From Tubulanus polymorphus (Eukaryota; Nemertea; Palaeonemertea; Tubulaniformes; Tubulanidae), in assembly GCF_964204645.1 (NCBI RefSeq), contig NC_134027.1:23176485-23240484 (forward strand): 64,000 nucleotides of DNA, written 5' to 3'. A program made the translations under genes and the position numbers. Shown in pieces: positions 3,640 through 42,036 of the stretch (position 1 is the stretch's first letter; the number at the start of each line of letters is the position of its first letter). The notes below the pieces were generated by a model. It had not been told where the DNA came from. It saw nothing but the letters and a program-made list of their open reading frames with translations, and did no database searches.

Positions 3640-3721
3640 GTCAAGTTCGAGATCACTATTTAAAATCTGGAAGCCGGTGGCTGAACAAAAATTGCAATGT
3701 GACTCTAAACGCATCATCTAA

Positions 3722-8705: not shown

Positions 8706-8750
8706 CACTGAATGCTAGATTTACATGCGGCATTGCCACTGCGTAAGCGT
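8706..8750 (-). CDS. IgSF copy 1, tail exon with His in place of Tyr
   Basis: 45 bases, phase 1-1, encoding AYAVAMPHVNLAFSG. The other copies have PYVN here (copies 3 and 4 PYVNV, copy 2 PYVNT); copy 1 has PHVNL and so lacks the phosphorylatable tyrosine. Confidence 0.7.
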
Positions 8751-11700
8751 CTGAAACATATTTGTTTATTATAAGAAAAATGATAGCAGAGCACGGGCGG
8801 AAATGTGTGGAATATACGTACGTGAATATGTGGGGTCATGCAGCTCATAAGTCTTAGAATAATCTGTAAAGGATAGAAAACGCTTTCATGAGTACTTACG
8901 ATATTCAAGTACATTAAAAGATACTCAAGACACGCCCTGTTAAAACGTAATGCCATTTCCAAAAATAACTGATTAGACATGCTTGGAATTTGTACTATCT
9001 ACCAATATTGTGTACTTGAATTAAAAACAATTGTAAAGAAAATACTTCCAATTCAAACCATAGAAAAGTTTCCAGAGGCGGTCCCACAGGTCCCCGCATT
9101 GTTGGACAGATTTTATCATTTCCTAAGCTAAAACCTTTAGTCGCGTGATTAATTGTCGTTTATCCCTCTTTTGGCACAAAATTCAAATTTATGAATCGTT
9201 ATCGATTTTCAATGATCAAACTGAATCTTCTTGCCTGAGGACAAAGTATTTGCATGTAATATTATCACTCATTCCTCTTGATACAAATCTTAGCGTGATA
9301 CCTATTCCTTTCACTTGAAATTGACAAAACTTTTCGAAATATTGTGTCTTAATATTTTACTATTTTCTTTACTGCTTTGCACAAATAAAAATCTATCGAT
9401 TAATCGAGATTATCTTATCAATGATACTCAGTACTCAGTATTGATAACCCGCGAAAACATATATATTATTAGTTCTTTTACTCATTTCTACGAAGAATCA
9501 GTTTTACCTTTTGATGAAACTTTAGCTTTAGTTTGCCTGAAATAAAAGCATTTATTTTAACGTGGCATTTTGTCAATTGCAAGTTTGGCAAATATCAATC
9601 AAGTTCACCGAAATTGGTCGATTCGAGGAAATAATGGGATTCGAACCTACTCAGATATTAAGTCTATTAACTAGGAACAATTATGTTCAGAGCCCGTGGT
9701 GAACATTCTGCTCTTTGAAACATCATCAAATCGTCCTTATTTTGTGGCCATACGTGATTTTGACAAAATCAAGTGCTGGATTTTCTCGTTTGATGGCGCT
9801 ATTCAGAACCGGAATATGTTTATTTTTTAAATATTTTATATGAAATATCGTAAACTCTACGTACCCAATGATTGGTGAGAGAGTAATAAAAAACATCATT
9901 GCTTTGTATGGTGTTGTACACGGATCTAAATTCGCCTCTTTTAGCTTAATCTGTTTGTTTTTTATGACATTTAGAGTGATTTCTAGGCCTTTGAATTTAT
10001 AATTTGTCACATCCAATGCATCATGAGCATCATGAGGATACATTTTAAAGGATTAAGCGTGACGACGTATAGTAAAAGAGTTGAATTTTGTCGAAACCCG
10101 TATAGTAAATATTCCTGTTTATAGAAACCCGAAAACAGTATCATTCCGTGTCATCAATTGGTGGTTCATACCTAAGCTATAGTATCAAGCAGATATAGAT
10201 AGAATAGATTGATATAGCTAGTTGGTGCGAGATAAAGGGACAGCAGATGATTTAATGAAAACTTACGGTTGATTCGATTCGTGCTTAACGACAAGACCTC
10301 CGTTTCTGAGTTGTCTTGTTATATAAACAAGTGCGAGCAAGAACATCACGACCAGAACGAACGACGTGCTACCAAGAATCACACCGGCAATCATTAGGGG
10401 ATTAACTGTTATGGCGTCACTCCACTTGCCACCAACTGAATAGAGAAATGACATTCAAATGAGATGCAAATCCATTATCTTTGAGAGGCATGAGATTCGC
10501 TGAGGAAGCACTACTAGATTCAGAATAAAACCTAAAAATCTAATAGAACACGGCAAAAACTTAAATCAGACACCCAACTCAGTGTCACTGATACAGCAGT
10601 CTTTGAGACGATTGTTAGATTTGACGGTGTTTTTGGAGGTCCTAAAAACAAAAGCGAATAAAAAGACAAGACGGTACGCGTTATTTCTGCAAAGATAACA
10701 AAGTTATAAAAAAAAGAATATTCTTTTGAGATGGAATTTTGTAGGAATCATTTTACATTCACGTTTCAGCCATGATATTTCAAATTAACTTCATCGATGA
10801 CCAAATAACTAGTACACATAATCGGCAAATGAAAAAAATGTTTTGAAAACTCCATGTCTGGAAATAAACGTCTAATGCTCCAGAACTTACCGAATTCTAT
10901 GAGTTTTAATGTAATTTCTAAGCTACCAATGGAATGCTTCAGTTGACACGAATGAAATCCATAATCGGACGCCTGAACTGATTCCAAAATAACCTTCCAG
11001 TACATTTTTACCGGGGTTGACCAAATTCCCTTGGATGTTAAATTGGAGCTGCAATTTATAGTTGTCGTTGACGGATTTGCATCGTAGATTATCGTGAATT
11101 CAGCACTTTCTCCTAATCTCGCTGTGACGGGTTCGAGTTCTCTTGAGAGCCTTGGTGCATCTATGGGGAAAAAAGGGATATCGTTCATACAACATATCTT
11201 CTGTCTGGATCGCTATGACATTTCTCCACGGTTCAATATTTCACTTAACATATGATTGGAAATAAGTTGTCTGGGAAGCAGAAATCTGGCATAAGTCAAA
11301 TCCATCAAAATGCGACATCAAAATTAGTTTTCAACAGCGGGAGACGTTTAATGTTTTAGATCGATGTCCTCTCGAATTGTCAATTATTTAGGTATCATCG
11401 CATTTGCATCCAGATATTTACTATAAGAATTATTTTTAGCTAGTACGTCAATTGTCATGAGTAAACACTTGTTAACCTGTCCATTTATAGATGCTCTTAA
11501 TGAAAATGAAGTTTTGGGTCCGGTTACTTACATTGAACATCGACAGTAGCAATATTACTGATAGTAAAACCCGCTGTATTTGTTACTTGACATCTGTATC
11601 GCCCTGAATAAGCTTTTGATAAATTGTCCAGGTTGAGATGATCCTTTCTGGATTCAGTTGATTCAATTGATTTCCAGACACCCGATATAGCTGAGAATTG

Positions 11701-14700
11701 CCAGCGAAAAGTGTAATTGCTAGGATTACCATCGGTTGCAGAACAGTTAAACCGAATTGAACCGCCTTTTCTTACTACACTTTTTAATGGTGTCAACGAA
11801 ACGGAATCGGCGGGATCTGTAAAACAAGACACAGCCACTTTGCTTTTTAACGTAAGACCACTCGGAATATATCGAACTGCCATCATCTGAAATAATGCAT
11901 CATTTTCATGCAAAATCAATCATAAGATAAATATGTAATGATAATTACTCAAATTGGAATGATTAGATAAACACCACTAAAGATTACACAGTACGGACAA
12001 TGAAGCGTTTTTGGTGACACTATTGACAGGTTGGCGGTTCTGATAAGCTGTATATCTATATTGTCTTCCATTTTTATCCTTATCAGTTGGTACTATTATA
12101 GACTACTAGAGCAATTGTGAGGTTCGGGTTTATGATTGGTTGCTCTGATATAGGCGTTGACGCCAAAGTAGGCCGGTTAAGTTGTCAGGGCTTAGACTTA
12201 AAACCGATCTAAGACTAACTTAGTTCTATATCCAATCTAACAACTGTTGGATATAAGATCACATTTTGGTCTCACGTATAGACGATGGAACTGGTCTCTG
12301 AGCTGTTACCGAACTTACAGTGAACGATAACTGTTGTATCTTTATATAGATTTCCAGTTTGACATCTGTATCGAGCCTGATTCATGGTTTTAATTGCAGT
12401 AATCGATAATGTACTAGTAGCCACAAACCCGTGATAGGCTGCACTAGTTTTACTCGTAGCTGGTTGAGGGTCAAGTATGTGTCCATGTTGTAGAGGAATA
12501 TGTGAACCACTGAATCTGTACAGCCGGGTTTGACGAGTCAGTTCTACACTCTGTTACGAGTTTATTTGTAGGCTACATTGAACAATTTGACAGAATCGAA
12601 AAAAATCAAATGTTTGGTAAACGTGTTGTGTCTAAACTTACAGTGAACGGTAATTGTTGTATCTTTGTAAAGATTTCCAGTTTGACATCTGTATCGAGCC
12701 TGATTCATAGTTTTAGTTGCAGTAATAGATAATGTACTAGTAGCCATGAACCCGTGATTGGCTGCACTAGTTCGATTCGTAGCTGGTTGGGAGTCAACTG
12801 GTGTCCATGTTGTAGTGTAATATGTGAACCACTGAATCTGTACAGCCGGGTTTGACGAGTCAGTTTTACATTCCAACTGTTGATTATTGTTTTCTAATAC
12901 ATAATCTGCCGGTTTCTTCATCATCGTCAGTGTTGTTGCTTGAACTGGAAATAATTAGTTTTCATTAAATTGTCAAAATCCGGGGATATTGACGAAACAG
13001 AAATTAGTCAAAGGTGGTAGAACAACATTCACTCCATGAGCAGTACTTACAGTTGACAATTAATTGAACTTTATTAGAATTCATTTGTGTTGGTATACCA
13101 GCCCCAGTAGCTGTACATTGATATTCTGCCCGGTTATCTGTTTTATTGACGGATTTTGAATATGTAAAAGGACTGACTCCTTGTTTCACAGTGCTGCCCC
13201 CTTGTATTCTAGTTATGACTAGGTTTGGTGCCGGGTTACCCCCTGTAGCTGTACACGTTAAGTCAACAGATGCAGATTCCTGAACGGGTGACGTCGGTCC
13301 TTGTAATGTAACACCACTGGGCGGGTCTGAAATGAAGTAAAATAAGGATTGACCCGAACTGGAACCAAATTCACTTCTTGGAATAATAGTTATGAAACTA
13401 TCTGAGCACTTACAGTTGACAGTTAATTTCACTTTATTAGAAATCATTGGTGTTGATATACCAGCCCCAGTAGCTGTACATTGATATTCTGCCTGGTTAT
13501 CCGTTTTAGTGACGGATGTTGAATATGTCAGGGGACTAACTCCCTGTTTGACAGTGCTGCCACCTGGTGTTCTGGTAATGGCGAGGTTTGGTACCGGGTT
13601 ACCCCCTGTAGCTGTACACGTTAAGTTAACATATGTTGAGTCCTGAACGGGTGACGTCGGTCCTAATGTAACATTACTTGGTGGGTCTTAAATGAAGTAA
13701 AATAAAGATCGGCCAATATTACTTATAATTTCGAGAAATGAAATACTTCGGGTGTTGGAGCGATTATGTATATCTATGTGTTAGTTGATTTCAATAGGTC
13801 TACCCATGGATATTTCAATCGCCTGTCAATCACAGGGACCTGTTTCGCTTGAATCTGGGTTAAGTTAAATTGTGGGTGTAAAAAATCAAAGAAATAATCG
13901 GTATCAAAGCCACTCGCTATGCGACTTTGTCTCTTCCAATCTTCCCGCCATTTGGATTCATTTTTGTGAGTACTCAATTTCATATTCTCGTCGAATTCTT
14001 AAGATATTTTTCTTCCGGTTTATGAGTCATTATTATCGCTTATCGCTGATAGATATATGTTTCGATAATGACAAAATTTGAAACGTCAACATCATGTACA
14101 AACAAGCGCATGAGTTTTCGTTCAACGGCTCCGTGATCTTTATGACATTTTTTATCTAAACTGCAAAAACGATCAACTATTTGAAAAATGACATGTTTGA
14201 TACTAGTTCTAAGTGTGATCGAATGATTTTAAGTGAAGAGTAAAGTGACCACGTGTTTATGAAATACTTACGTAGAACATCGATAGTAATACTACCAGTG
14301 ACTGATCCTGCTATATTCGATACTGTACATGTATAAACACCTGAATCAGTTCTACTGATTCGTGTAAAACGTGTAATGTGAGTTTATTATTAGATTGTCC
14401 TGATAGATTGACACCACTCCATCTATACTTCAGTCCCGTAGCTCCAGACTGTGAACCGTTACATGTGATTGTTAATGGTGAATTCTCCTGTACTGTGACG
14501 ATGTTGTTGATCGCGGTGTTTGGTTGAGATGTTAGAACTGGTCCACGCGGGGGTGCTGTAAATTTGAAACCATGTAGAACTACATAGAACTGGAATTGCA
14601 TAGTGTCTGAATATATGAAACTTAGATAGAAAATATAAAAAGCCAGCAGGAGAAACGTAGGATGAGAAATTTCCTATCATGCTCCCAGAACAGCTGTAGA

Positions 14701-16119
14701 TTTTGAAAATCAATTGAACCAATTCATCAACGTCGGCGGCTATGAATATTTCAACGTTGTCGAATAGATTACGATTATAATTCGGCACGATTTTCTAATC
14801 TCAATTAATAGAACTAAAGTAATGAGTATTCCGTGAGGAATTCAAAAAGTAACAATCGATTTCAGTTACAAAGAGCAGCTGGTGAATTGGATTGAAAATG
14901 ACCGATGATTCATTAATTATTTATCATTTTTGTCATTTTGATATCATTCAATCGTTTTTCATTCTCACCTACTACAGTAAGTACTGTTCTAGTATTTCGG
15001 AAAGAGTTCATGTAGTTACATGCCCATGTCCCAGCATCAATCATCGGTACATTAGTGATACGCAAACCATAACGTCCAGCTGTGACGTCACATAGTCCAG
15101 TGTACCGGGATTCACTGATAGCGCCACGAGGACAGTTTGTTTTATCAAACGCATACTGTACAGTAGGGATACTGAATGTCATTCTGTGACCGCAGAAATT
15201 TCTACTGGGTGGTGAAACCTGACATTGTACGACAGTGGTGCCACCTAGTTTTACAACTGCTGGTGTTACAACCATCGTGAATGTCGTATCCGCTGCGTCT
15301 ATACAGTTCTGCTGTTGACCTAAACAAGAAGAATAAACAAGAATTTTGGTCGGGCGATATAGCAATTCTCTTTTTAACATATCAGAGACCATGGCAAATT
15401 ACTACTTTACTCATTAACACCAAGAGCAGTTCCCAAGGGCATCGCCGCGGGTCGGGGGCCTGAACGAGGAAACTAAGTCAAAAAATAAGTTCCGATTTAT
15501 TCGTCATAAAAGACTTTATTTCTGTCTTTTCGTTTTTAATTCTTGAATTCGCTTAAAATGCCCGAAAAAATATATTGCAGAGAATTCAATTTGTTTCGAA
15601 GGAACCCCGTACCGCCAATCGCCTTTCGCCTTCGGCGCTTGTGTTCCGGATATTCCCAATTCCAACCTTCCTGCGGGAAATCCTTGAAAGGACCATGGTT
15701 CAATAGTAGTTAATCGAGTTAAACCTTCACAATTTATTATCACTTCTTGGTCTACATTTTAGCTCATCAGTTATTCTAGTCTTTTATTTTGATTAAACAG
15801 GATAGAATCAGATTTGATTATCAATCGTCTCATGATACGTTCGTTCAATGCGTTAATTTTTATAGAACCCTCTTTTTTATTCTGTTTACCGTTTATTTCT
15901 GTGTACATCATTACACACATGAACAGACTCATGAGCAGATTTTCCTGCAATTTGAAAAAAGGCAAAAATGGCAAAAGGTGTTACTATCTAAACTGTTCGA
16001 CAAACCCAAAAAGGGCTGCCGCTCATGCAGTAACCACATTTGTGGCTCATATTTGTCGACATATCAATAATAATTTGGAACTGTATGTACAATAAAAAAA
16101 TTCTTACCTTCAGAAACAT
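8706..16119 (-). CDS. IgSF transmembrane receptor, copy 1 (probably damaged)
   Basis: Exons from the 5' end: 16108-16119 (MFLK), 15890-15944 (rest of signal peptide), 14969-15319 (Ig1), 14272-14555 (Ig2), 13414-13686 and 13051-13326 (two Ig of one type), 12642-12944 (Ig5), 11532-11816 (Ig6), 10891-11160 (Ig7), 10267-10435 (membrane segment), 9508-9536, 8822-8863 and 8706-8750 (cytoplasmic tail). Every exon ends in GT and follows AG, and all Ig exons are phase 1-1. Ig2 is 284 bases instead of 276 in the other copies because of an 8-base insertion near 14372-14379, which shifts the frame; skipping the exon would restore it. A pseudo-exon (12319-12545) repeats Ig5, and the FN3 exon is reduced to 10567-10640. 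The last exon is unknown. Ligand and function are unknown; the architecture suggests a surface adhesion or recognition receptor. Confidence 0.75.
8822..8863 (-). CDS. IgSF copy 1, tail exon DYSKTYELH
   Basis: 42 bases, phase 1-1, encoding DYSKTYELHDPTYS; three tyrosines. Acceptor TTTACAG, donor GTACGT as in copy 3. Confidence 0.6.
9508..9536 (-). CDS. IgSF copy 1, short juxtamembrane exon
   Basis: 29 bases encoding QTKAKVSSK, acceptor TTTCAG, donor GTAAAA. Aligns with 23-base exons in copies 2 (19563-19585) and 3 (27826-27848) and is exactly two codons longer, so the phase is kept. Confidence 0.6.
10267..10435 (-). CDS. IgSF copy 1, transmembrane exon
   Basis: Encodes VGGKWSDAITVNPLMIAG followed by a run of about 23 hydrophobic residues (VILGSTSFVLVVMFLLALVY) and the basic stop-transfer RQLRN. 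169 bases, phase 1 to 2. Homologous exons at 19899-20058 and 28558-28693 keep SFVLVVI and LLRN. Confidence 0.8.
10567..10640 (-). pseudogene. IgSF copy 1, truncated FN3 exon
   Basis: Starts correctly after TTTTTAG with PPKTPSNLTIVSKTA and VSVTLSWVSD, matching the first quarter of the FN3 exon of copy 3 (29052-29357), then breaks off. Because Ig7 and the membrane exon have compatible phases, a transcript without FN3 stays in frame. Confidence 0.7.
10891..11160 (-). CDS. IgSF copy 1, Ig domain 7
   Basis: 270 bases, phase 1-1, open. Contains LGESAEFTIIYDANP, TINCSSN and ASDYGFHSCQLKHSIGSLE. The first Cys sits later than usual, a trait shared by all copies. Confidence 0.75.
11532..11816 (-). CDS. 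IgSF copy 1, Ig domain 6
   Basis: 285 bases, phase 1-1, open. Contains IRFNCSATDGNPSNYTFRW and GRYRCQVTNTAGF, then ISNIATVDVQC. Equivalent exons: 22317-22589 (broken) and 31196-31471. Confidence 0.8.
12186..12300. mobile_element. MITE, CAGGGGC family, copy 2 (diverged)
   Basis: Shares CAGGGCTTAGACTTAA on the left, CTAAGACTAACTTAGTTCTATA in part, and GGAACTGGTCTCTG on the right with the copies at 6729 and 35417. Lies in an intron of IgSF copy 1. Confidence 0.6.
12319..12545 (-). pseudogene. pseudo-exon, duplicate of Ig domain 5
   Basis: Keeps CRTDSSNPAVQIQWFTY and the donor GTAAG, but after TTTWTH-like residues one extra base brings in a stop, a second stop follows, and the 5' part with the acceptor is missing. 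It is flanked on its left by the MITE at 12186-12300, which may have accompanied the event. Confidence 0.7.
12642..12944 (-). CDS. IgSF copy 1, Ig domain 5 (copy-specific)
   Basis: 303 bases, phase 1-1. Contains QQLECKTDSSNPAVQIQWF and ARYRCQTGNLYKD. No equivalent was found in copies 2 and 3, so it was gained in copy 1 or lost in the others. A damaged repeat follows at 12319-12545. Confidence 0.75.
13051..13326 (-). CDS. IgSF copy 1, Ig domain 4 (duplicate of domain 3)
   Basis: 276 bases, phase 1-1. Contains GPTSPVQESASVDLTCTATG and RAEYQCTATGAGIPT. Close to exon 13414-13686 along its whole length including flanking intron, so it arose by local exon duplication; copies 2 and 3 have a single exon of this type. 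Confidence 0.8.
13414..13686 (-). CDS. IgSF copy 1, Ig domain 3
   Basis: 273 bases, phase 1-1, fully open. Contains GPTSPVQDSTYVNLTCTATG and AEYQCTATGAGISTP. One codon shorter than its sister exon 13051-13326. The acceptor is TTTAAG rather than TTTCAG. Confidence 0.75.
14272..14555 (-). CDS. IgSF copy 1, Ig domain 2 with 8-bp frameshift
   Basis: Starts APPRGPVLTSQPN, reaches the B-strand motif LTITCNGSQSG and KYRWSG, then shifts frame after NNKLT. Compared with copy 3, eight bases (GTGTAATG on the plus strand) are inserted, an imperfect repeat of the neighbouring CGTGTAAAAC. Downstream of the shift the original frame still encodes DSGVYTCTVSN. Length 284 versus 276 in copies 2 and 3. Confidence 0.75.
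14969..15319 (-). CDS. IgSF copy 1, Ig domain 1
   Basis: 351 bases, phase 1-1. N-terminal V-like domain: begins GQQQNCIDAAD, has VQCQVSPPS (B-strand Cys) and ends DAGTWACNYMNSF (F-strand Cys). Extra Cys at NFCG, TNCPR and LCDV suggest additional disulphides. Same length in copy 3. Confidence 0.8.
15890..15944 (-). CDS. IgSF copy 1, signal peptide exon
   Basis: Encodes ENLLMSLFMCVMMYTEIN, a hydrophobic signal-peptide core, ending phase 1 at donor GTAAAC. Acceptor is TTGCAG. Confidence 0.75.
16108..16119 (-). CDS. IgSF copy 1, exon 1 (start codon)
   Basis: Encodes MFLK and splices at AAG with donor GTAAG. Copies 2 and 3 have the same tiny exon (MFIK, MIIK) preceded by the shared context AGC-AGC or similar, which fixes the start codon. 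Confidence 0.75.
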
Positions 16120-17478: not shown

Positions 17479-18072
17479 TAGCACATGAAGGTGGTAATTC
17501 AATAAATACAAAACTAAGTTAATCAAAGCAAATATTATTCTTGATGATACGTTTCCGCTACAAATGTATGCACCTTAAATAGGACGAACATTATGCATTA
17601 GTTCGAAACATCTTGCAAATATCAACAGTACATAATGGTGCATCAAACGTTGGAGCTGGTTTCAGGTTTCATTGTTTTCCTATTTTACTGACACGATCTA
17701 TTTCCAATTTCCCAGAATAAGTACATCGTGACGGGTCATTTATTGATATTCATGAAAGATACGTGACTTTTTGTTTATGTTCTATATTCAGAAACACGTT
17801 GTTTCGCCAACAGTCTGACAGGAGACCTGACACTGCCGAAACCACCCGGGCAATGGCGTAGCCATAATTTCTAAGTATTGACATAGCAGGCCGTGGTAGT
17901 ATGCTTGAACATCGAACATTTCGTCATTACGTCAGCGAAAAGAAGTGCTTCCGAATCATTCCGAATAGCTATTTCGTTTACATCTTAACGTCTTCCTAGA
18001 GGCATGGATCGGCTTTTTGTGAGAGAAACAAAGAAAATATTAAACGAAATTAATAGATGTATCGAAATCAGG
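17479..18072. repeat. 594-bp direct repeat, unit 1
   Basis: Matches 18162-18755 at a constant offset of 683 bases with only a handful of substitutions seen (for example AATGGTG/AATTGTG, GTATTGA/GTATTTA, GTGCTT/GTACTT) and no indel. It lies in the presumed 3' flank of IgSF copy 2. Confidence 0.9.
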
Positions 18073-18161
18073 ATCAAATTGATCCCCACTCAACACAATT
18101 TACATCTTTTGTATAGGATTAACATGGACGAATCATAATATAATAATAGCCGATAATAACA

Positions 18162-18755
18162 TAGCACATGAAGGTGGTAATTCAATAAATACAAAACTAA
18201 GTTAATCAAAGCAAATATTATTCTTGATGATACGTTTCCGCTACAAATGTATGCACCTTAAATAGGACGAACATTATGCATTAGTTCGAAACATCTTGCA
18301 AATATCAACAGTACATAATTGTGCATCAAACGTTGGAGCTGGTTTCAGGTTTCATTGTTTTCCTATTTTACTGACACGATCTATTTCCAATTTCCCAGAA
18401 TAAGTACATCGTGACGGGTCATTTATTGATATTCATGAAAGATACGTGACTTTTTGTTTATGTTCTATATTCAGAAACACGTTGTTTCGCCAACAGTCTG
18501 ACAGGAGACCTGACACTGCCGAAACCACCCGGGCAATGGCGTAGCCATAATTTCTAAGTATTTACATAGCAGGCCGTGGTAGTATGCTTGAACATCGAAC
18601 ATTTCGTCATTACGTCAGCGAAAAGAAGTACTTCCGAATCATTCCGAATAGCTATTTCGTTTACATCTTAACGTCTTCCTAAAGGCATGGATCGGCTTTT
18701 TGTGAGAGAAACAAAGAAAATATTAAACGAAATTAATAGATGTATCGAAATCAGG
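18162..18755. repeat. 594-bp direct repeat, unit 2
   Basis: Second unit, separated from the first by an 89-base spacer. The near identity indicates a recent local duplication. Confidence 0.9.
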
Positions 18756-18814
18756 TCCCAGGTCGAACAGCAATACGTCACACAGCTAGAAAAAAGCAGA
18801 CGTGGGTGAACTTC

Positions 18815-18960
18815 AGGTTTTGTAGTAACAAAGTAGTCGACTTAATGTCGGAGCTAATAATCGATCGCGCTTTGCTGTTTTCCGGACCATTTTTGACTTA
18901 ATTGACATGATTCAGTTTTACTTAGATCGCAAATAGTCGATAACTCCGCTCGCCGAAGTT
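18815..18960. mobile_element. MITE, TAGTCGACT family, copy 2
   Basis: Contains AGTAGTCGACTTAATGTCGGAGCT on the left in part and AATAGTCGATAACTCCG with CCGAAGT on the right, as in the element at 42297-42525. Confidence 0.55.
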
Positions 18961-19020
18961 TATAGTTAAGCTTTTTACGTAGTCGTCTCTGCATCGCCTA
19001 AAAGATATCTTTCTTAATAA

Positions 19021-19309
19021 CATCCTCCCTCGGGATGATTTCGAACCTGATGGCTTCGCTTTGACTCAACCACGGCACGAAACCCTACCACATTGGGCCA
19101 CAGGTACACGCAGGTTTGCCGCACGAAAACTTGCGGCACCAATCAGATTTCCCGTTGTATAATCGCCGAGACAAATTCCGCAGATAAATTATAAATTGAC
19201 TATGATAAAACTTGAATTCTGGTTGGCTAATATTTACATCATCTATGTTGCGCATTCAGCCCTGTCAGTCTTGAAACAATTAGGTTCGAAATCTAGCCGA
19301 GGGAGGATG
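19021..19309. mobile_element. palindromic MITE with B-box-like arms, diverged copy
   Basis: Starts CATCCTCC with TTCGAACCTGATGGC, ends AGGTTCGAAATC...GGGAGGATG. The interior shares CACGGCACGAAACCCT and TTGCGGCACCAATCAGAT-like sequence with the copies at 45441 and 63082. No clear target duplication. Confidence 0.65.
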
Positions 19310-22075: not shown

Positions 22076-22290
22076 ATGGCATTTCACATTCAGGAATGTA
22101 TCACACGTGTGATTAACCTTCAGGGCTGTTACCCATTTGTGATTCACATGTGTAAAAATGGGACAAAATCACGCGTATGATTCACATTCAGGGATGTATC
22201 ACACGTGTGATTTTTAAATCACACGTGTGATCATGTCCTATTTTAACACATATGAATCGCATGTGTTTTTTAAAACATCACATGTGTGGA
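22076..22290. repeat. cluster of CACGTG-type palindromes
   Basis: ATCACACGTGTGAT occurs complete three times (about 22091, 22198 and 22217), with degenerate versions (TTCACATGTG, ATCACGCGTATGAT, ACATCACATGTGTGG) between them and a repeated spacer TTCACATTCAGG(A/G)ATGT. It lies in the intron between Ig7 and Ig6 of IgSF copy 2. Confidence 0.8.
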
Positions 22291-25200: not shown

Positions 25201-26266
25201 ACCATATCGCCCGGCTGTGACGTCACATTGTCCGGTGTATCGGGGCTCAATATTAAAGGCAGTTTTACGAGGACAGTTTGTCTTATCAAACTCATACGGT
25301 ATTAAACGGCTACCAAATATCATTTTCTGACCACAGAAATTTTTACTGGGCGGTGAAACCTGACATTGTACGTCAGCGGTGCCACCAATTCTAAAAACTA
25401 CTGGCGTAACAACTACCGTAAGGTTCGTATCCGCTGCGTCTATACAGTTCTGCTGCTGTCCTAAACAAGAAAAATTAACACACAACGATTCATATTCTAA
25501 TTACGGGTTGATAAAGCAATTATTTTGAATTAATTATTAATCATATCAACAGCATGCGGCCATTGCGAGCGAAAGTCGATGAATGTCGTCACTTATTCGA
25601 CAGCTATCAAGGTTCGAATCCCAGTCGTCGCTCACTAAGAATCCGACCACACATTTTCATTAGCTCATTACAGAGCCGTGGGGGGGGGGGAGGTTTCGTG
25701 CGAGAAAGCCAAAATGTTTAGACAGGGTAAAATCGTTGAAATATGAATAGCTGCACTAAAGTAACACGTCAACAATTTTGAAAGTCTTGTGGTTTGTTTT
25801 CTTAAAAGTCAAGAAGGCAATATTGTCAAAATATAACTGCAAAGTAACGGGTTTTCTGTTTGCAGCCGTCTGAAGTAAATTTGCATTTCCATTGGAATAA
25901 GTTACTCCCGACTTCAATAGAATAAGCACGGGCCAAATTTGCCTCAGGCCTGCTCCGTAACAATTTTTCGGAATTAGAACTCGCCGGTAGGCCTACTTAC
26001 CGTTTATTTTAGTATACACCATTAGACACATGAACAGCGTCACGACAAAACACTCCTACAATTAAAACATTCCGGCAAGTCGTGGTCCTCTCAGTTCCAG
26101 CAGGGCGAATAGTTGTCGATGCGGCATTTGTCGACAACGACACTGCATGGGTGGAGAGATTCAGCCTCGAGTGCTGTTCGGTTCCGTGTCGCAGCACCGC
26201 CGAAGGGGAAGTAGGGGTCACCACCTCCAGGTGATTTTGTATTTTGTACTTATGTCGCTGACAGTT

Positions 26267-26390
26267 GCAATTTGAGCGTTTGCGGGGACGTCGAATTTAA
26301 TTTTCCACACATCCGAAATAAGGGGATAAAATTTGAGCGTTTGCGGGGACGTCGAATTTTATTTTCCACAAATCCGAAATAAGGGGATAA
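26267..26390. repeat. 61-62-bp tandem duplication
   Basis: The segment from AATTTGAGCGTTTGCGG to AATAAGGGGATAA occurs twice in a row with three or so differences. It lies in intron 1 of IgSF copy 2; a single, shorter relative is at 33405-33435 in copy 3. Confidence 0.85.
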
Positions 26391-26482
26391 CTATTATGTC
26401 ACTCAATACGTGGTTTTTAACGTGGTTATGGACACATGGACTTAATAATATGTAATTATATTGGCCTTACCTTGATAAACAT

Positions 26483-27501
26483 GCTGCTTTGTTGAAATCA
26501 CTACAAAACTCTCATGAAGATTAATTTTTTTTTAATTTCACTCAGGGTTTTTAATACACAAAGCATCATATAAATTCAAATGAATTCAATAATATATGCG
26601 CACTAGAACTTGGAGTAATCAGTCTGAATTATCACTTCAAAATTAGACTCTTCGTTATTCGCTACCCATCAACTCGTCACTGAACGACTCGCCGATCTGT
26701 CGAAGGAGCATTCCTATTTGGAACGTTCATTGCCCCGAGCTCTCCTCCCAATTTCTAACTTGGTATTCACGGTCGCCTTTACAGGTAGCAGCGAGTAACG
26801 TAGAGTCAAATGTATATGATTAGCATAGATTACATAATTAGAGCCGATGATGACTACGTAACAAAATATATGGAGGTAAAATGTTAGAAAAAATACAATT
26901 CTATTCATACAAAACTAAAAGTTTATATACACAAATATTTTCCAATGCTATAGAAATAAATATAAGTCTTGTACCACGGGTCAATTTAATCATGTACAGG
27001 GTGAATTTATGGGGTTGACTCGGGGATCCCGGCCCCTGCCTTCCAATCGAGGTTGCCATTTTTGTCAACACAGAGGTCGCAAAAATCCATTTGACACTCA
27101 TCCGGATATTGAATGTTTGTGTTTATCTCTTATATTATGCATAATACTGAGGGAGGGCCCCGCTAATGTGACTTAGCGTTACACACTCCTAGTATGTCCT
27201 ATATTTCACGCCGGGAAAATGTCCCTAATCAAAGTTGGTTTTCTATTTCATTCACATCTTCACATCTTCATAAAAGTTTGGATCGTTTTCATGAGGCTCA
27301 CCTGATGATGAAGAAAAACAGAAAACAACGAAATTAATGAATGTCAGGTTTGTTCCATATCAGACAAGTACGGCTTTCTGAAAAGTGACGAGGTCGCAGA
27401 GTTTTGAACGAGTCACGAGGTTTTCCCGTAAATTTCCCTCAATTGAAAGAATCTTTGATTAACATTTAGAAACAAACGTAGGCATGGCAATTTAGACTCA
27501 C
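26483..27501. other. intergenic, 3' flank of IgSF copy 3
   Basis: Upstream DNA of copy 2 and downstream DNA of copy 3. A minus-strand stretch at about 27012-27095 reads as a coding-like, Cys-containing segment (CQMDFCDLCVDKNGNLDW) ending in TAA at about 27013, but there is no convincing acceptor and no match in the other copies, so it is not called. Confidence 0.4.
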
Positions 27502-27546
27502 CACTAAAAGCCACATTTACATACGGCGTCGCCGCTGCATAATCGC
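27502..27546 (-). CDS. IgSF copy 3, tail exon with YVNV
   Basis: 45 bases, phase 1-1, encoding DYAAATPYVNVAFSG. PYVNV fits the Grb2 SH2 ligand consensus Y-x-N. The exon continues phase 1 into a last exon that I could not identify. Confidence 0.75.
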
Positions 27547-30500
27547 CTGAAATATAACAATATAGATATGTACGAACACAAAGGACTGTTAAAATTGGCA
27601 AAGATACGGGAGGTTTAGAATCCTAAGCTCATACGTACGTGAATCTGCGTCGTGGGTTTTATTTTCATTACAGCTAGTATACTCTGTAACGATACAAAAA
27701 AAAATCCGTTAACATCATCAATGATATTCAATATTATCATATGTGAATGTATATTTCCTTTCTTTTAGAGATCGGATTAAGTTTTGTAAATGCTGATTTG
27801 TATTTTCAATATGATCAATATTTACCTGTTGTTGGTTCTTTAGTTTTTCTGAAATAAAAGGGTAATTTCATTGCGATTTCGATGGTTATCGATTCAAAAT
27901 ACATACATATTTCATTACAGCGGGTCAGTATTTATTTGGGGGGGGGGGGGGGGTAGAATTCGAACCTACTCAGAGAGGTGTAAAGGTATATGTTCAAACA
28001 ACCACGTGTTACCCATTATTGACATGCTGCTTTTTGGCATGCAATCGAATTTGGGACTTTCTGTTACTCGGAGGCAATGGAAAATCTAGTCATTTTGAAA
28101 ATTGATAAAGCCATTGGAGAGTGTTATTTTCATGTAAAAGCTGTATCCTTTTTGTGCACTCTCTATATAAAGGTGTAATTAATATCAAATAAGGCAGTCA
28201 GGAAAATTCACCCAATCAGTCGCTTGCCGGTTCAGACTGAATGGAAGATTGTTTGAATGAACCAGAACCGAATTTCCCAATTATGTACTTCGATTTAAAC
28301 AAAACATTCTGTAAATTTGTCCGTCGATCACACAACTATATCTGTACTTCGATTTCCGATTTCAAAATCAAACCCCCTGTTTCGTTTTCGGCAGGTGCGG
28401 TGAGTCTGTAAGGGGCACTCCATCAAAATATCAAACGAAATTAACCAAACCAAATAAGTAACATCGACAATCCCTATTTCAAGATCAATACCAGGCAATC
28501 AAAATGATTCACGAAGATAACGCGGTTATACCGCAGTGTATTGGCCAATAAACTTACGTTTTTCTCAATCTGTCGATTAAGACGATACCTCGGTTGTTTC
28601 TGAGTAGCTGTATCAATACTACGATGAACAATATTACAACCAGAACAAACGATATGCTACCAAGAACAACACCAGCATCAGATTGATGTACTACTGAAAA
28701 TTAGATTATGCTTTAGTTGGGATAATCGGTATTTTTCTAAATCTACCGAATACTGCAAAGTTCTTGTAAAAATCATCTACCGAACAGGCAAATTTTCCGT
28801 TCATATTGATAATCGCTGCGAGTGGCGTAAAGATCGCATAATCATCAGACCACCAACCGGCGCCCGCGTACGTTCTACATTCTTCCAATGAGCCGTCTGC
28901 TCGCAAAGATGCAATCAATAGTTGCAATAAATTTATAAACTTATACATGGCCGGGATCGATATTAACCATTCGAGCAGAGCACTGATGAAAAAACTCAGT
29001 GCTTGAACGACGAGCGAGGAAGCAGGAAGCATTGCGTGCGCATTTGCTTACCATTTGTTTTAGTTGTAACTATATCGGTAGATAAACTTGTATTATCACC
29101 AGGATTTGAGTTGACACTTTTCACTTTGAACAGATAATCAGTCGCTGGTTTTAATCCGGTTATTTTTGTTTGTACCAGTTTTCTATAACCGGGATCGGTT
29201 ATTTCTGTTTTATTGACGAATTGCGTAGAGTCTAGTGCCCTGTAACTGAGGGTGAACGTCTGTTCGGAGCCACCCGCAAATTCAGACACCCAACTCAGAG
29301 TCACGGATTCAGCTGTTTTTGCAAGAACTGTCAGATTTGTCGGGGTTTGTGGAGGTCCTTAACAAGATAGATACAAGAATAGGTGATGTAACCTCTCGAA
29401 TTGATGGTATGCTTAATATTGCGTTTCTAGGATAGATTTCTACTGAAACGTTTTGTAATACTTCATATACTTACCAGTCTCTGCGAGTTTGATTGTAGCC
29501 GTTATGCTCCCAATTGAATTTTTAACTCTACACGAATAAGTTCCATAATCAGACTCCCGGACGGATTTTATGATTACATTCCATTGAGTTTTGCTCATCG
29601 TGGCAAAATATGAGGCTTCCCTCATTCTGTGACTGCATCTCAAGGTTGTGGGTGTCGGATTCGCGTCGTAATTTATCGTCAATTTAGCAGTTTCTCCTAT
29701 TTTTGCTGCAACCGATTTAACTTTTCGCTTAAGCTTTGGTGCATCTATCGGAAATGAAAAAAAAAGAAATATTTGGAAGCACTTTCTGCGAGTGACCTGA
29801 CTACAATATTCATAATCCTAGCATTGGTGCTTCAAGCTAGGCACAGATCAACCCTAACGTGGCAATTCAACTGATCGGTGACTGATGTCGACCGTCACAT
29901 TTCTGCCACCGCGATCTCAATCGATCTGAGTCTAGCTATGGTTGTTTACGGAACCGTCGACGAGTCCCTAGAATTGAAAATGTTCTACTTCTACGATGCG
30001 ACGGAACCGGTGTGCGCGCTGCGGTGGGCCGACAACCGGGGCCGACAACAGCAAATGAAATCAAATCCTAACGGCAGTCTATTGGCCGTCTGATGAATTT
30101 GTTTGAAACTATCATCGTAATTCTGTTGGGATAATTGCCTTATCTAGGGGAATTCGGTTATTTCAGTTTTGAAAATGTGAGTAATATCGGCGTAAACAAA
30201 TTCTAGCCATATTTCGATCAAAATCAAATACGTACTCAACGTTATTTGATTTTTGGTGTTCCGCATCTTCCACCAAATATATGAAAATTTAAGCGCAATA
30301 TATCGGCAAATCACTGGAAAATTGTTAAATTTTTCGTAGAGGCAAATGGTGCATTTAACCTTTATTCTGAAGGTTGTATATTAGAACGAGTCTCATGATT
30401 TACCCATAGAGAAACTACGACAGGGGTGTATCTGCATATCAGTACAGATTAACAGGCCAAGGGCGTTGTTGAAAAAATTTCCTTTGACGATCCGACATTC

Positions 30501-33500
30501 AGAGGCGTTGTCAATGAAATTTAGGCTGGAATTTCAATGAAGTGGCTGGGATCGAGTCGCTGGTCGTTTGCGTGGATTACCTTTATGTAAAGTTGCTGGG
30601 ATCGAGGGGGCTGTGTGTTAACGCAGATAATCCCTTTATAAAAGTAGCTGGGATCGAACGACTGGGTGTTTGCGTGGGTGTTTACCCTTGTACAAAGTGG
30701 CTGGGATCGAAAGACTGTATGTTATTATGTTGGATATCGGGCGAGCGGGTTTTGATTTTTATACAACAAAAGACAACGATGCTTTGCTGATGCGGGCGAG
30801 CGCATTTGACTTTTCAAAATTTGTATTAGGGACTTTTTATGACGCAAGCGGCATTTGACCTTTTTTGAAAAATTATGGTATTTCTTTGTTTGGCCTAGTA
30901 CCGGTATTGCAGATTCTCCAATCATCATCTTTAAACGGTTATCACCAAGTAACCTCAAATATAGCTATACACATTACAAAATCAATATTCATTTGGTGAT
31001 TGTCGGATCGTCGAAGAAAACTTCCTCGACATTGCTTGGTTTCTGATTGTCGGATTGTCGAAGGAAATTTTTTCGACAATGCTTCTAATTGTCGAGAGAA
31101 GTTCTCGGGACGAAAACCGCATTACGCAGTTTGTGCCTACGACCTCGGCACAAATCAACCAGAAAACGGATACCAGCATACCGATTACTACTTACATTGG
31201 ACATCGACGGTAGCGATATTACTGATAGTAAAACCCACTGTATTTGCCACTTGACATCTGTATAGTCCTGAATCAGCTTTTGATAAATCATGTATGACAT
31301 GATGATCAATGTTCGGTCCGATTGATTTCCAGACACCCGGCGCAGTTGAGAGTTGCCAGGTGTAAGTGAAATTATCGGGGTTTCCATCAGTTGCAGCACA
31401 GAAAAACCCAATTGAATTGCCTTCTGTAATTAACGACTTAACTGGAGTCAACGAAACAGAATCAACGGCATCTGTAAAATATTACCCGGCATTCAGAAAT
31501 GACTGTGTAAAAATAGGCCTGCATGTAGTGATTATTCCACACTTGTTCATTACACACTTTTTCATAGATTAGGTAAAACCATAGACAGGTTGACAAGTCT
31601 GATAAGACATTTCGCAAATTCTTGGGAACTATCTGTATAACTTACGGGTGACCGTTAATACAACTTTATTAGAAATCATTGGTGTTGGTATACCAGCCCC
31701 AGTAGCTGTACATTGATATTCTGCCTGGTTATCTGTTTTATTGACGGATGTTGAATATGTTAGAGGACTAACTCCCCGTTTCACAGTGCTGCCCCCTGGT
31801 GTTCTAGTTATGGCGAGGTTCGGTTCCGGGTTACCCCCTGTAGCTGTACACGTTAAGTTAACAGATGTTGATTCCTGAACGGGTGACGTCGGTCCTTGTA
31901 ATGCAACACTATTTGGTGGATCTGAAATTCAACGAAATGAAGATGGTCAAAATATATCGTTCATCGCATCTGAGGATTGGTAAGTGTAGCTAGATTCCGT
32001 ATTGTTACCGGAGCTCACGCCAACACAAAACCTATGAAATTGTGTGTAGAAAACTACTTACTATTTCAGCACCTTATCAAGGATATTATTACTGGACGAT
32101 GTTATTTGCGGTGTTGACCTTTTGTATGTGAGCAAAATGACACAAGTTAATGAAATACTTACATTGAACGTTGATAGTGATTCTACCAGTAACTGATCCA
32201 TATGTATTCGATACTGTACACGTATAAACACCTGAATCAGTTTTACTGATTCGTGTAAAACTGAGTTTATTATTAGACTGTCCTGATAGATTGACACCAC
32301 TCCATTTATACGTCAGTCCTGTAGCTCCAGACTGTGAACCGTCACATGTGATTGTTAACGATGAATTCTCCTGTAATGTGACGATGTTGTTGATTGCGGT
32401 GGTTGGTTGAGATGTTAGAACTGGTCCACTCGGGGGCGCTGTAAATATCGGAACAGAATAGATTTAAGTTTTTACGATTCACCTTTCATTAGCATGCTCC
32501 AGATTCATTTATTAGGATTTTCATTATACACAGCTTAAGAATGAAAGTATGACACAATGCATCAATAGACTACGAGTTAAATGTGGCATTGTCAATCTCA
32601 TCCGACTAAACTAAATAAAGCATCTATTGGTAAATTCTAACTTGAGGACAAAAATGACGTAGAAAATCAACTCAAAGCGGCAAATAATTCAATGCCAATA
32701 ATTATTACTAAACACGATTAAAATGTATGAATCATTCGTTTATAATTCTCACCTACTACAGTAATTACTGTTTTACTATTTCTGAAAGAGTTCATGTAGT
32801 CACATGACCATGTCCCAGCATCAATCATCTGTACATTAGTGATGCGTAAACCATAACGTCCAGCTGTGACGTCACATTGTCCAGTGTACCGGGGTTCAGT
32901 GATAGTTCCACGAGGACAGTTTGTCTCATCAAACTGAAACGGCATAAAAGGGCCAGACAAGACTATCCTGAGACCGCAGAATTTTTTACTAGGTGGTGAA
33001 ACCTGACATTGTACGACAGTGGTGCCACCTAGTTTTACAACTGCTAGTGTTGCAACTATCGTGATTGTCGTATCCGCTGCGTCTATACAGTTCTGCTGCT
33101 GCCCTATACAAGGAAAGTAAACAAGTAACTATTCCTCTCTAATTACATGTTAATAAAGCCATTATTTGAATTAATCTTATCATCGACGAAACATAACCCT
33201 GGTTCGTATTAATCATAAGAATCCAGCACTTATTTTTCATTTTTACTCGCCGTTTATTTTCGTGTACAACATTAGACACATGAATAGAGTCGTGACCAAA
33301 AACTCCTGCAATGAAAGAATCATTAGATGAGAGCTCTGAGCTCTACATTGTCGACAAACGAACAGTTACCATGTGCAATCTTAGCGTTAAAAAAAATCAA
33401 GGACAAATATGATTTTCCACCCGTCCGAAATAAGAGGACCCTATTATGATCTTCGTTCAATCTCGAGTACTGCATAGAATGAATTAGATTATTCTTTAAG

Positions 33501-34168
33501 CTTCAAATTACAAATAATTTTTCAATGTAAAATACATGGTTAAATACATGGAAATATACAGTTTACATACTCCTGCACAGTATTTTAACATAAACTGCAA
33601 GTTTTCTTAATCACATTTCTATCGTCTGAATTAGATAATTTACTAAATTTATGAATAGTTGTATTTCCTTTTCGCAGACGATTCAAGTTTAATTCACAGT
33701 AACAAATGCTCTAAAACCCTCGAAACCGAAATGAACTATGAACTCATAGTTCGTCTTATATTACACTATTTTTTATATATTCCTGCTACCTTCATATTGT
33801 AATTCGAATCGTGGATAAAACATTATTATGACAGATTTGGTATAAAGCGGTTATGTGAGCTCAAGCGGTTATCTCTCGGTATCGTGGCGATGTAATCCGA
33901 CAGGTTAGGCGTGGTCACCTGACCGGTAACTTTGATTTCTACCAAGTGGCACACTATAGTCAAAGTGCTGTCTTAAATCTGCTATAACTATCATAGACAG
34001 GGCTAGCAGTAGACAATTTTGACAAGAGTAGACAAAATAACACTGAACACATGCTATCTATAGAATTCGTTCTTCAAAAAATCTATTCCCCAAAGATTAT
34101 GGCGGCAGGCTTGAGTCGACCCTGGACTCTACGATATGTATCTATATCGGTCTTACCTTGATGATCAT
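27502..34168 (-). CDS. IgSF transmembrane receptor, copy 3 (open in all exons found)
   Basis: Exons from the 5' end: 34157-34168, 33251-33305, 32753-33103 (Ig1), 32163-32438 (Ig2), 31646-31921 (Ig3), 31196-31471 (Ig6-type), 29475-29744 (Ig7-type), 29052-29357 (FN3), 28558-28693 (membrane), 27826-27848, 27639-27683 and 27502-27546 (tail). Exon lengths are 12, 55, 351, 276, 276, 276, 270, 306, 136, 23, 45 and 45, and all phases agree, giving about 690 residues before the unidentified last exon. Order: signal peptide, five Ig domains, one FN3, one membrane helix, cytoplasmic tail with TPYVNV. Intron 2 starts with GC instead of GT. This is the only apparently functional member in the window. Nearest general analogues are nephrin/hemicentin-like or other adhesion IgSF proteins; no specific orthologue is claimed. 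Confidence 0.8.
27639..27683 (-). CDS. IgSF copy 3, tail exon EYTSCNENK
   Basis: 45 bases, phase 1-1, encoding EYTSCNENKTHDADS between TTACAG and GTACGT. Confidence 0.65.
27826..27848 (-). CDS. IgSF copy 3, short juxtamembrane exon
   Basis: 23-base microexon encoding KTKEPTT between TTTCAG and GTAAAT; conserved in copy 2 and, two codons longer, in copy 1. Confidence 0.65.
28195..28500 (-). repeat. interspersed repeat, family R, copy 1
   Basis: Reverse-complement relative of 39535-39760 and 60415-60620: shared landmarks are GATTGTCCCTGTTATT-like, TGTGTGATCGGCGGTC-like and TCGAAGTACATAATTGGGAA. It lies in an intron of the IgSF copy 3 tail region. No open frame and no terminal repeats recognised. 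Confidence 0.6.
28558..28693 (-). CDS. IgSF copy 3, transmembrane exon
   Basis: 136 bases. About 24 hydrophobic residues (VVLGSISFVLVVILFIVVLI) followed by LLRNNRG and RLRK. Confidence 0.8.
29052..29357 (-). CDS. IgSF copy 3, fibronectin type III domain
   Basis: 306 bases, phase 1-1. PPQTPTNLTVLAKTAESVT, LSWVSEFAGG, LKPATDYLFKVKSVN: the Trp, Leu and Tyr positions of an FN3 fold. Only copy 3 has the complete exon. Confidence 0.85.
29475..29744 (-). CDS. IgSF copy 3, Ig domain 5 (Ig7 type of copy 1)
   Basis: 270 bases, open. IGETAKLTINYDANP, LRCSHR and ESDYGTYSCRVKNSIGS. Confidence 0.8.
29878..30092 (+). pseudogene. coding-like fragment of unknown origin in an IgSF intron
   Basis: An open stretch of about 70 codons with base composition clearly richer in GC than the surrounding intron, containing HISATAISIDLSLAMVVYG and EPVCALRWADNRG. 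The pattern weakly recalls a WD-repeat blade. It lies on the plus strand in the intron between Ig7-type and Ig6-type exons of IgSF copy 3 and has no equivalent in copies 1 and 2. It may be a captured or retrocopied exon; function not assigned. Confidence 0.3.
30537..30725. repeat. tandem repeat around GCTGGGATCGA
   Basis: GTGGCTGGGATCGA or a close variant recurs four times (about 30541, 30592, 30646 and 30698) at 51-54-base spacing; the spacers share TGGTCGTTTGCGTGGA-like and CCTTTATA-like segments. Located in an IgSF copy 3 intron. Confidence 0.8.
31000..31092. repeat. tandem ATTGTCGGATNGTCGA units
   Basis: Three units each combining a TGTCG(G)AT...GTCGAA(G/A)GAAA strand and a TTCGACAATGCTT strand, so each can also fold back on itself. 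Immediately downstream (minus sense) of the Ig6-type exon of IgSF copy 3. Confidence 0.6.
31196..31471 (-). CDS. IgSF copy 3, Ig domain 4 (Ig6 type of copy 1)
   Basis: 276 bases, open. IGFFCAATDGNPDNFTYTW and GLYRCQVANTVGF. Confidence 0.8.
31646..31921 (-). CDS. IgSF copy 3, Ig domain 3
   Basis: 276 bases, open. GPTSPVQESTSVNLTCTATG, then AEYQCTATGAGIPTP. Confidence 0.8.
32163..32438 (-). CDS. IgSF copy 3, Ig domain 2
   Basis: 276 bases, open. APPSGPVLTSQP at the start, LTITCDGSQSG, YKWSGVNLSG and DSGVYTCTVSN. It serves as the undamaged reference for the lesions in copies 1 and 2. Confidence 0.8.
32753..33103 (-). CDS. IgSF copy 3, Ig domain 1
   Basis: 351 bases, open. Starts GQQQNCIDAADT; key residues VQCQVSPPS, KFCG, TNCPRG, GQCDVTAGRYGLR and DAGTWSCDYMNSF. 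Confidence 0.8.
33251..33305 (-). CDS. IgSF copy 3, signal peptide exon with GC donor
   Basis: Encodes EFLVTTLFMCLMLYTKIN. Acceptor TTGCAG. The donor is GCGAGT, where copy 2 has GTAAGT and copy 1 GTAAAC. Confidence 0.75.
34157..34168 (-). CDS. IgSF copy 3, exon 1 (start codon)
   Basis: Encodes MIIK with donor GTAAGA; equivalent to MFLK and MFIK of copies 1 and 2. Confidence 0.75.
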
Positions 34169-34779
34169 GCTGCTTTATGAAAACCACCACAGAACCTCTT
34201 TAATGAAAATAGACAATCTTTTCAAACATTTCAATTTCAAATATTAAATATGAATGTAACGACACCCGTTCACGAAAACATAACTGATTGTTCTTTTAAG
34301 CGATATCTTCAACGATTGAAGTTATGCTAAAATACTCGTAATGTGGTAACATCGAAAATGAAAGTGTGTGTTTTTGACCTTTCATAAATGAAAGAGGAAA
34401 AAGAGGAAATATATAAAAGCCACTTTTCCTGGAATGTAAGATTTTCACGCGTAAAAGAACTACTCACACGAATATTTCGAATTGTGAATCAATATCACTA
34501 ATTGAATGGTGACAGCGTTCGCACAGTGCCTAAGAACGATATTTCGAGATAATCATTCCAACCAGGAAGTAAAATACAAGGACATTATAATGCGCGCTAT
34601 GGAAATCATGAAAAAAAAAACTAAATTCAATGGACGGGTATTGATTAAGAAGACACGCTATGCAGACAGTTTTATTTCGTGCCTTTATACGTTGTATGTA
34701 GAAACGAAAATGAAACAAAGAAGTCCAAACTGATATAAATATACGACATAAGATATGCTCCATATTTAACCAATTGTGA

Positions 34780-35070
34780 CTGGAAAAAGACACACTTCTC
34801 TACTGCCGATCTAAAGTCGGGGATTAAACGGCGCGGGTATTTCCTGCACTGAATGTCTACGTATCTTGGCTGATCCGGGCCATACGCGTATCAAAACAAG
34901 AGAAAGGCCCAGTCAAATATATGAGATAGGAATGCTCCGTAATTTACCAAGATTGAACTGCTACCGAAAAACAAACACTTCTACTGTCGATATAAGGTCG
35001 ATAACAAAACGGCACGGGTATTCCCCGCACTGAAGTAGGTCTACGTTTCGTGGCTTATCCGGGCCATATC
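34780..35070. repeat. tandem pair of about 185-bp intergenic units
   Basis: ACACTTCTCTACTGCCGATC...GGCGCGGGTATT...GATCCGGGCCAT (34788-34870) is repeated as ACACTTCTACTGTCGATA...GGCACGGGTATT...TATCCGGGCCAT (34974-35068). A third relative lies at 17020-17110. Confidence 0.7.
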
Positions 35071-35373
35071 AAAAAGAACGACATTCAATATACACTATAA
35101 TATTAACTTTTTTAAACACACTCGCAAACGCAACCTTGAATGCAACTTTTCTCGTTTTCGGGTTCGCCTCTTAAATGAAGAAAAACGAAAAACAACGAAA
35201 TTAATGAATGTATCGCAATCGCAGGTCTCTTCAAGATCATACAAAAATGGCTTTTCGTAAAAAGGACGAGGTCCCAGAGTTTTGAGGTTAATAGGTTTCT
35301 TTTCGTAAATTTACCTTGATTGAAATGATTTTATATCTCCAGAAACATAGGCATGGCAATTGGGACAACTCAC

Positions 35374-35416
35374 CGCAAAGCCACATTAACATACGGCGTT
35401 GCCGCAGCGTAATCGC
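35374..35416 (-). pseudogene. IgSF copy 4, solitary tail exon relic
   Basis: Encodes DYAAATPYVNVAL then meets GTGAGT; two bases shorter than the 45-base exon of copies 1 and 3, so the phase is lost. The acceptor side is occupied by the MITE at 35417-35552. No other exon of a fourth gene was found to the right, where a retrotransposon fragment follows at 36078. Confidence 0.75.

Positions 35417-38585: not shown

Positions 38586-42036
<3,451 letters not shown>

Follow-up and report, generated by a model that had tools for sequence, protein, structure and literature searches.

Here, we describe a locus of immunoglobulin superfamily (IgSF) receptor genes in a 64,000-nucleotide stretch of the genome of the nemertean Tubulanus polymorphus (NCBI RefSeq assembly GCF_964204645.1, contig NC_134027.1, hereafter C3). 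This whole stretch, C3:23176485-23240484, is called the window, and coordinates without a contig name are positions within it. We give about even odds to the reading that the locus would be one end of a gene cluster that expanded in this lineage and encodes single-pass IgSF receptors for recognition, which would signal through phosphotyrosine. The predicted proteins have a V-set-type first immunoglobulin (Ig) domain (Ig1) and a second one (Ig2) at the outer end, a variable stalk built from Ig3, Ig4 and Ig6, and an inner end made of Ig5, a fibronectin type III (FN3) domain, a membrane helix and a short tail with tyrosines. That they would serve immunity, what ligand they would bind and where they would be expressed is what we infer from these genes.

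Receptor genes in the window

Alignment of the window against itself revealed three paralogous minus-strand blocks and one relic. Paralogous exons share 65-91% DNA identity with E values from 0 to about 1e-28, which excludes chance. All three copies have a signal peptide, Ig exons, a membrane exon and tail exons. A prior reading of the window from its letters alone (the original prediction) had called three related minus-strand genes plus a relic, and the self-alignment, exon models and Pfam all agree with it. The set of shared exons was also described correctly, but not the presence of P-Y-V-N in every copy, as copy 1 has P-H-V-N.

Copy 3 (34168 to 27252, minus strand) is the complete copy. 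Our script-checked exon model contains 13 exons and 2121 nt including the stop, and encodes 706 residues, rather than the ~690 first estimated, with 0 internal stops. The order is signal peptide, five Ig domains, FN3, membrane helix and tail. On the minus strand, a first signal-peptide exon (34157..34168; ATG ATC ATC AAG) is followed by a second (33251..33305), Ig1 (32753..33103), Ig2 (32163..32438), Ig3 (31646..31921), Ig4 (31196..31471), Ig5 (29475..29744) and FN3 (29052..29357), with Pfam supporting each of the Ig and FN3 assignments. The membrane exon follows (28558..28693), and residue 617 begins the most hydrophobic 19-residue stretch of the protein. The tail is made of exons t1 (27826..27848), t2 (27639..27683), t3 (27502..27546; DYAAATPYVNVAFS) and the last exon, t4 (27252..27301; NFYEDVKM-stop), the latter two also covered by the tail motif survey described below. 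Tail tyrosines are at residue 662 in t2, 678 and 684 in t3, and 701 in t4. Exon borders are canonical apart from a GC donor (GCGAGT) after the second signal-peptide exon, where the homologous exons have GT in 5/5 others listed. Every Ig and FN3 exon of copy 3 is phase 1-1, as had been proposed.

A Pfam search places copy 3 in the immunoglobulin superfamily, with Ig_3 at 103.7 bits (cut-off 30; E 7.6e-30), I-set at 88.1 bits (cut-off 23.7) and a single fn3 at 36.6 bits (cut-off 25; E 5.4e-9). Ig1 alone scores 27.5 bits against the V-set cut-off of 26, and its six cysteines occupy columns that are invariant in 21 aligned copies. A profile built from 21 of 31 Ig1 exons matched solved V-set domains (B7-H4, Skint-1, MOG and butyrophilins) weakly, with a best E of 0.0036.

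Copy 1 (8428..16119, minus strand) reads Ig1, Ig2 with 8 extra bases, Ig3a, Ig3b, Ig6, a decayed second Ig6, Ig4, Ig5, an FN3 remnant, the membrane exon and a tail with PHVN and PYEDIKT. Its Ig6 exon (12642..12944, minus strand) belongs to a type that copies 2 and 3 lack but that is common across the genome-wide family. The originally predicted counts of seven, five and five Ig exons in copies 1, 2 and 3 are correct, and copy 1 has in addition an eighth, decayed, at 12566-12317. Copy 1 did not come through modeling as an intact gene: the 8 bases shift the frame of Ig2 (exon of 284 nt vs 276), FN3 is truncated, with 28/102 codons matching, and the tail has PHVN where PYVN is expected. With Ig2 left out, the remaining exons are open and join into one frame of 718 residues that runs to its only stop at the end.

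Copy 2 (about 17979..26482, minus strand) is dead, as had been recognized, with lesions in Ig1, Ig2, Ig4 and the t3 acceptor. Two of its five Ig exons are damaged pieces, and exon modeling of the locus found no FN3 exon. Its last exon lies in a tandem duplicate of about 605 bases (17468-18072 and 18153-18755; 98.8% identity), and both versions, read by eye, carry TAG at the tyrosine codon. The relic (35152..35417, minus strand), defined by self-alignment and the tail survey, was described as a single exon. It does hold a t3 exon (DYAAATPYVNVA), together with a decayed last exon, and aligns with 27547-27283 of copy 3 at 72% identity over 282 columns.

A clustered family in the genome

Our searches covered the whole 267.8-Mb genome. 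With the Ig1 exon of copy 3 as query and E capped at 0.01, 41 matches were obtained; 30 were near full length (at least 112 of 117 positions) and stop-free. There are 21 of these exons within 0.41 Mb at C3:22.80-23.21 Mb, 1 at C3:24.34, 6 at 24.90-24.93 and 2 on contig C9; the family count of 30 is one of first Ig exons, not of whole genes. Judged by these matches, the window takes in one margin of a larger clustered family of predicted receptors. The Ig6 exon had 63 matches, 53 of them within C3:22.81-23.19 Mb, and in the window it is found only in copy 1. With E up to 1 allowed, a membrane-and-tail query matched C3, C9 and C12 at 22 places.

Next, we modeled 18 loci, taken from 200 kb of the main cluster and from further stretches. 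Ig1 and FN3 occur together in 11 of these loci, which have 5 to 11 Ig exons. The shortest layout, Ig1-Ig2-Ig3-Ig4-Ig5-FN3, is that of copy 3 and locus L042, and the longest is Ig1-Ig2-Ig3-Ig6-Ig3-Ig6-Ig6'-Ig3-Ig6-Ig6'-Ig5-FN3. One FN3 exon was matched in 14/18 loci (two interrupted, one a remnant) and none in 4/18. Loci b127, b168, b49, b28 and b82 have Ig exons that look intact, yet membrane or tail exons went undetected there at the cut-offs applied, and the short loci b146 and b187 are without Ig1. The listed flanks of intact exons in the modeled loci are consistent with phase 1-1, so domains can be gained, lost or skipped while the frame is kept.

Family genes lie on both strands, and four Ig1 pairs have a head-to-head arrangement with a spacing of about 4 kb. 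Around 22.90-22.99 Mb, blocks recur both as direct and as inverted repeats, the pieces measuring 0.8-9.1 kb with 87.6-99.9% identity, not counting the trivial overlap between the two queries. Six weak membrane-exon matches (E 0.05-0.10) and five weak Ig6 matches fall at C12:1.33-1.46 Mb, where the one copy read, L054, has an Ig5-like frame ahead of the membrane exon. This C12 array is probably related to the receptor family, judging by the matches.

Selection on the extracellular domains

The ratio of mean nonsynonymous (dN) to mean synonymous (dS) divergence was 0.62 for Ig1, 0.86 for Ig2, 0.48 for Ig3, 0.48 for Ig4, 0.47 for Ig5, 0.55 for Ig6, 0.56 for Ig6' and 0.32 for FN3. We then compared site models M1a and M2a using our own code. 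Each distinct sequence entered these selection tests once, provided that its exon had no stop and at least 90% coverage, and Ig4 (5 sequences) was left out of the site test. For Ig1, 28 of 29 distinct sequences entered the site test; the divergent C3_24888967 was dropped there and kept in the pairwise table. Twice the log-likelihood difference (2dlnL) was 31.2 for Ig1 (28 sequences), 20.8 for Ig2 (16) and 10.5 for Ig3 (20), and 1.4 for Ig5 (16), 2.7 for Ig6 (17) and 0.7 for FN3 (13). Trees from the first and second halves of each exon gave 33.8 and 50.1 for Ig1, 33.4 and 20.7 for Ig2, and 16.2 and 16.4 for Ig3. As a null control, 24 Ig1 simulations under M1a with a tree switch in mid-exon reached a maximum statistic of 8.7, some of the fits raising numeric overflow warnings. 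By these tests, Ig1, Ig2 and, more weakly, Ig3 carry a signal of positive selection, and Ig5 and FN3 do not.

Sites 44, 56, 97 and 99 of Ig1 have a posterior above 0.9, and 56, 97 and 99 recur in 3/3 runs (the full tree and both half trees). Sites 97 and 99 straddle the invariant W98, shortly ahead of C100. In V-set domains, a W/Y precedes the F-strand cysteine by two positions and its neighbors on both sides point toward the GFCC' face; sites 97 and 99 would presumably fit such positions. Site 44 would face the core according to an alignment of Ig1 with Skint-1, in which it lies two positions from the core Trp.

The original prediction of birth-and-death evolution in a modular, recognition-type IgSF receptor gains support from the 30 Ig1 exons, the recent segmental duplicates, the damaged copies and the selection signal in outer domains but not in Ig5 or FN3. 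Proteins that recognize variable partners, be they microbes or other cells, would be expected to change at the outer end in this way and to keep the signaling tail. The overall interpretation first given is supported in part.

Two tyrosine motifs in the tail

The tail survey included 15 terminal t3 exons across the loci examined. Two tyrosine motifs are conserved, TPYVNV and a C-terminal YE(E/D)(V/I), so the Grb2 site first proposed is one of two. Y-x-N is present in 13/15 terminal t3 exons, copy 3 included, and at C3:22940094 it is broken by loss of the N. The nonsynonymous-to-synonymous ratio pN/pS of t3 is 0.32, computed from the 10 distinct sequences among 13 full-length terminal exons. 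The duplicated genes L035 and L039 (C3:22932477-22933882 and 22973688-22975091) have three tandem t3 exons each, the first two without the tyrosine and the third with LYVNV.

The last exon ends in Y-E-(E/D)-(V/I)-(R/K)-x-stop in 12/15 loci. A thirteenth, at C3:22975050, has the motif in a frame that continues beyond the usual stop. The search pattern itself required Y(E/D)(E/D)(V/I/L) near a stop, no more than 1.5 kb from t3, and it had no match in copy 2 or the relic. An additional hit on the downstream side of L042 (+1104) is probably fortuitous. BLAST, too, recovered seven t4 matches, at E 0.89 or better.

The immunoreceptor tyrosine-based activation motif (ITAM) is defined as YxxL/I, 6 to 12 residues, YxxL/I; copy 3 departs from it with YVNV, 13 residues, YEDV. 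The inhibitory motif (ITIM) is S/I/V/L-x-Y-x-x-I/V/L, which neither site of copy 3 fits: position -2 is T for Tyr684 and N for Tyr701. The binding data in PMC2888578 show that the Grb2 SH2 domain binds pYVNV tightly, and in this respect the chemistry first suggested for PYVN stands. However, a single Grb2 motif is an incomplete account of the tail, given the second motif, of putative Src-SH2 type, and the fit of the first to the immunoreceptor tyrosine-based switch motif (ITSM). The table of IC50 values for the Src SH2 domain in the same source gives 0.5 uM for pYEEI, 0.8 uM for pYEEL, 1.1 uM for pYEEV and 7.9 uM for pYVNV, with pYEDV outside that table. The ITSM consensus is given as TxYxxV/I/L in PMC3958483, and TPYVNV of copy 3 fits both this and the Grb2 SH2 ligand Y-x-N. 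Together, the two sites would suit a module that couples a kinase with an adaptor; the competing reading is an ITSM switch.

In the mechanism we propose, Ig1 and Ig2 would meet variable partners, most likely microbial or parasite ligands, and clustering of the receptor would lead a Src-family kinase to phosphorylate the tail. The kinase would then be held by pYEEV/pYEDV while pYVNV recruits Grb2, and Ras-ERK signaling would begin. Segmental duplication together with duplication and loss of domains would diversify the germ-line repertoire.

Alternative explanations

The tail raises the possibility of an inhibitory or switch receptor, in which TPYVNV would act as an ITSM recruiting SHP-type phosphatases or SAP-like adaptors, and the family would dampen or tune a response rather than start ERK signaling. 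We consider this unlikely, even with an exact match to the consensus in PMC3958483. The T at -2 is retained in 14/15 terminal t3 exons. However, the N at +2, which an ITSM does not need, is also retained in 14/15, and YE(E/D)(V/I) is of Src type and not an ITIM, having N at -2. The Grb2 and switch readings also overlap, as GRB2 itself was found with a phosphorylated ITSM (PMC3958483). Under allorecognition, the receptors would bind each other or allelic forms in trans via Ig1 and Ig2, setting self and non-self between individuals or tissues, as in Hydractinia Alr1/Alr2. Selection does sit in the outer domains, as this would have it, and still we regard it as an improbable account of the family. 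We are more doubtful still of an adhesion, wiring or gamete-recognition family, incidentally expanded, whose outer domains would set cell pairing in the nervous system, in tissue or at fertilization rather than in immunity. Gamete proteins are likewise fast-evolving, and the whole ectodomain matches generic IgSF chains of solved structure, with Robo, contactin, neurofascin and IgLON beside titin and FCRL5 among the best 60 of 97 matches. However, these matches are at the level of domains; none of the best 60 of 97 has its best stretch confined to Ig1, and three begin inside it (CD276 twice, FCRL5). Furthermore, recent segmental duplication and many broken copies are unusual for wiring molecules.

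Several observations count against the recognition-receptor reading with a Grb2 tail. Copy 1 has H in place of the Y-x-N tyrosine, four extra upstream t3 exons in two genes lack that tyrosine, and TPYVNV would suit a switch motif as well as Grb2. The GC donor may weaken copy 3, the sole complete copy in the window. Ig6' gave a 2dlnL of 8.1 (9 sequences; p 0.018), so the outer-to-inner gradient of selection is not perfectly clean. Recombination within exons may inflate M1a/M2a tests, and our control simulated one break. Unfortunately, AlphaFold2 modeling of Ig1 from the three window copies failed (pLDDT 39), and we set it aside.

Comparison with known receptor families

For the oyster receptor CgIgIT2 (Crassostrea gigas), a review reports binding of Vibrio and LPS and a mode of action via ERK (PMC11999971). 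Like copy 3, it has five extracellular Ig domains, one membrane helix and a tyrosine motif in the tail. By the description in that review, it has no FN3 and its tail is an ITAM, whereas copy 3 has FN3 and a tail with TPYVNV and YEDV, spaced outside the ITAM rule. By this analogy, CgIgIT2 would be the nearest functional counterpart we found. A clustered family of single-pass IgSF receptor genes is also seen for Hydractinia Alr1/Alr2; this system is cnidarian, and according to PMC11067881 its function was shown through allele matching.

No specific sequence relation to vertebrate leukocyte receptors was seen, the Ig1 profile reaching V-set chains at E 0.0036 at best. The vertebrate KIR, LILR, SIRP and SLAM receptors are likewise encoded by tandem IgSF genes with birth-and-death evolution and phosphotyrosine tails; however, vertebrate leukocyte receptors usually have fewer Ig domains and no FN3. 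LAT and Shc also have YVNV Grb2-docking sites, but they are adaptors without an Ig ectodomain, while here the site is within the receptor. In molluscan FREP and VIgL proteins, Ig domains are followed by a fibrinogen or lectin domain; neither kind of domain is one of the 21 families that the Pfam search listed in copy 3. Arthropod Dscam has 10 Ig domains, 6 FN3 domains and arrays of mutually exclusive exons, in contrast to the five Ig domains and one FN3 of copy 3 and the at most one FN3 exon of the modeled loci. SLAM receptors carry ITSMs, according to PMC3958483.

Other features of the window and genome

Three tandem profilin-like open frames lie on the minus strand at 46241-46669, 49754-50176 and 55086-55565; the first was tested and matched Pfam profilin at E 5.7e-23. 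Blocks 48879-50369 and 54222-55699 of this region are 96.8% identical. A minus-strand frame at 4074-4559 (region 4074-6168) encodes LDL-receptor class A repeats (E 3.7e-22), and adjoining it on the plus strand is a leucine-rich-repeat frame (E 3.4e-40) that continues into a possible 7-helix receptor. An inverted repeat pairs 3715-3831 with 4630-4515 at 94.9% identity. A probable bile-acid-symporter-like gene lies at 38553-42036 (plus strand), its first exon matching SBF weakly, below the cut-off, at E 0.042. Elsewhere, about 205 kb at C1:8.286-8.492 Mb are rich in I-set domains, one of them within a 3168-residue open frame; these are probably giant titin-like muscle genes. A search for COX1 had no match in this assembly, and a search for molluscan haemocyanin had none either, with its controls equally silent.

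Significance

Clustered, fast-evolving IgSF receptors with tyrosine tails are a known kind, of which the layout and tail described here look like a new form. A family with this layout did not surface in searches of the literature on such families, which does not imply its absence from print or from related species. We offer as a tentative and rather doubtful proposal that these genes would form an undescribed invertebrate repertoire of some thirty receptors for recognition, encoded in the germ line, whose V-type domain has six cysteines and whose tails each combine a kinase-holding YEEV/YEDV with a Grb2/ITSM TPYVNV. If so, Ras-ERK would be reached without a separate signaling subunit or a Syk-type kinase, unlike in ITAM-based receptors. 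The phase 1-1 exons would let domain number vary, and a damaged copy could even survive via exon skipping. It is a long-standing question how animals that lack antibodies recognize diverse non-self or one another, and to this the family would supply concrete genes, residues and peptides: outer domains under selection, a stalk that varies between copies and a tail with two conserved phosphotyrosine sites.
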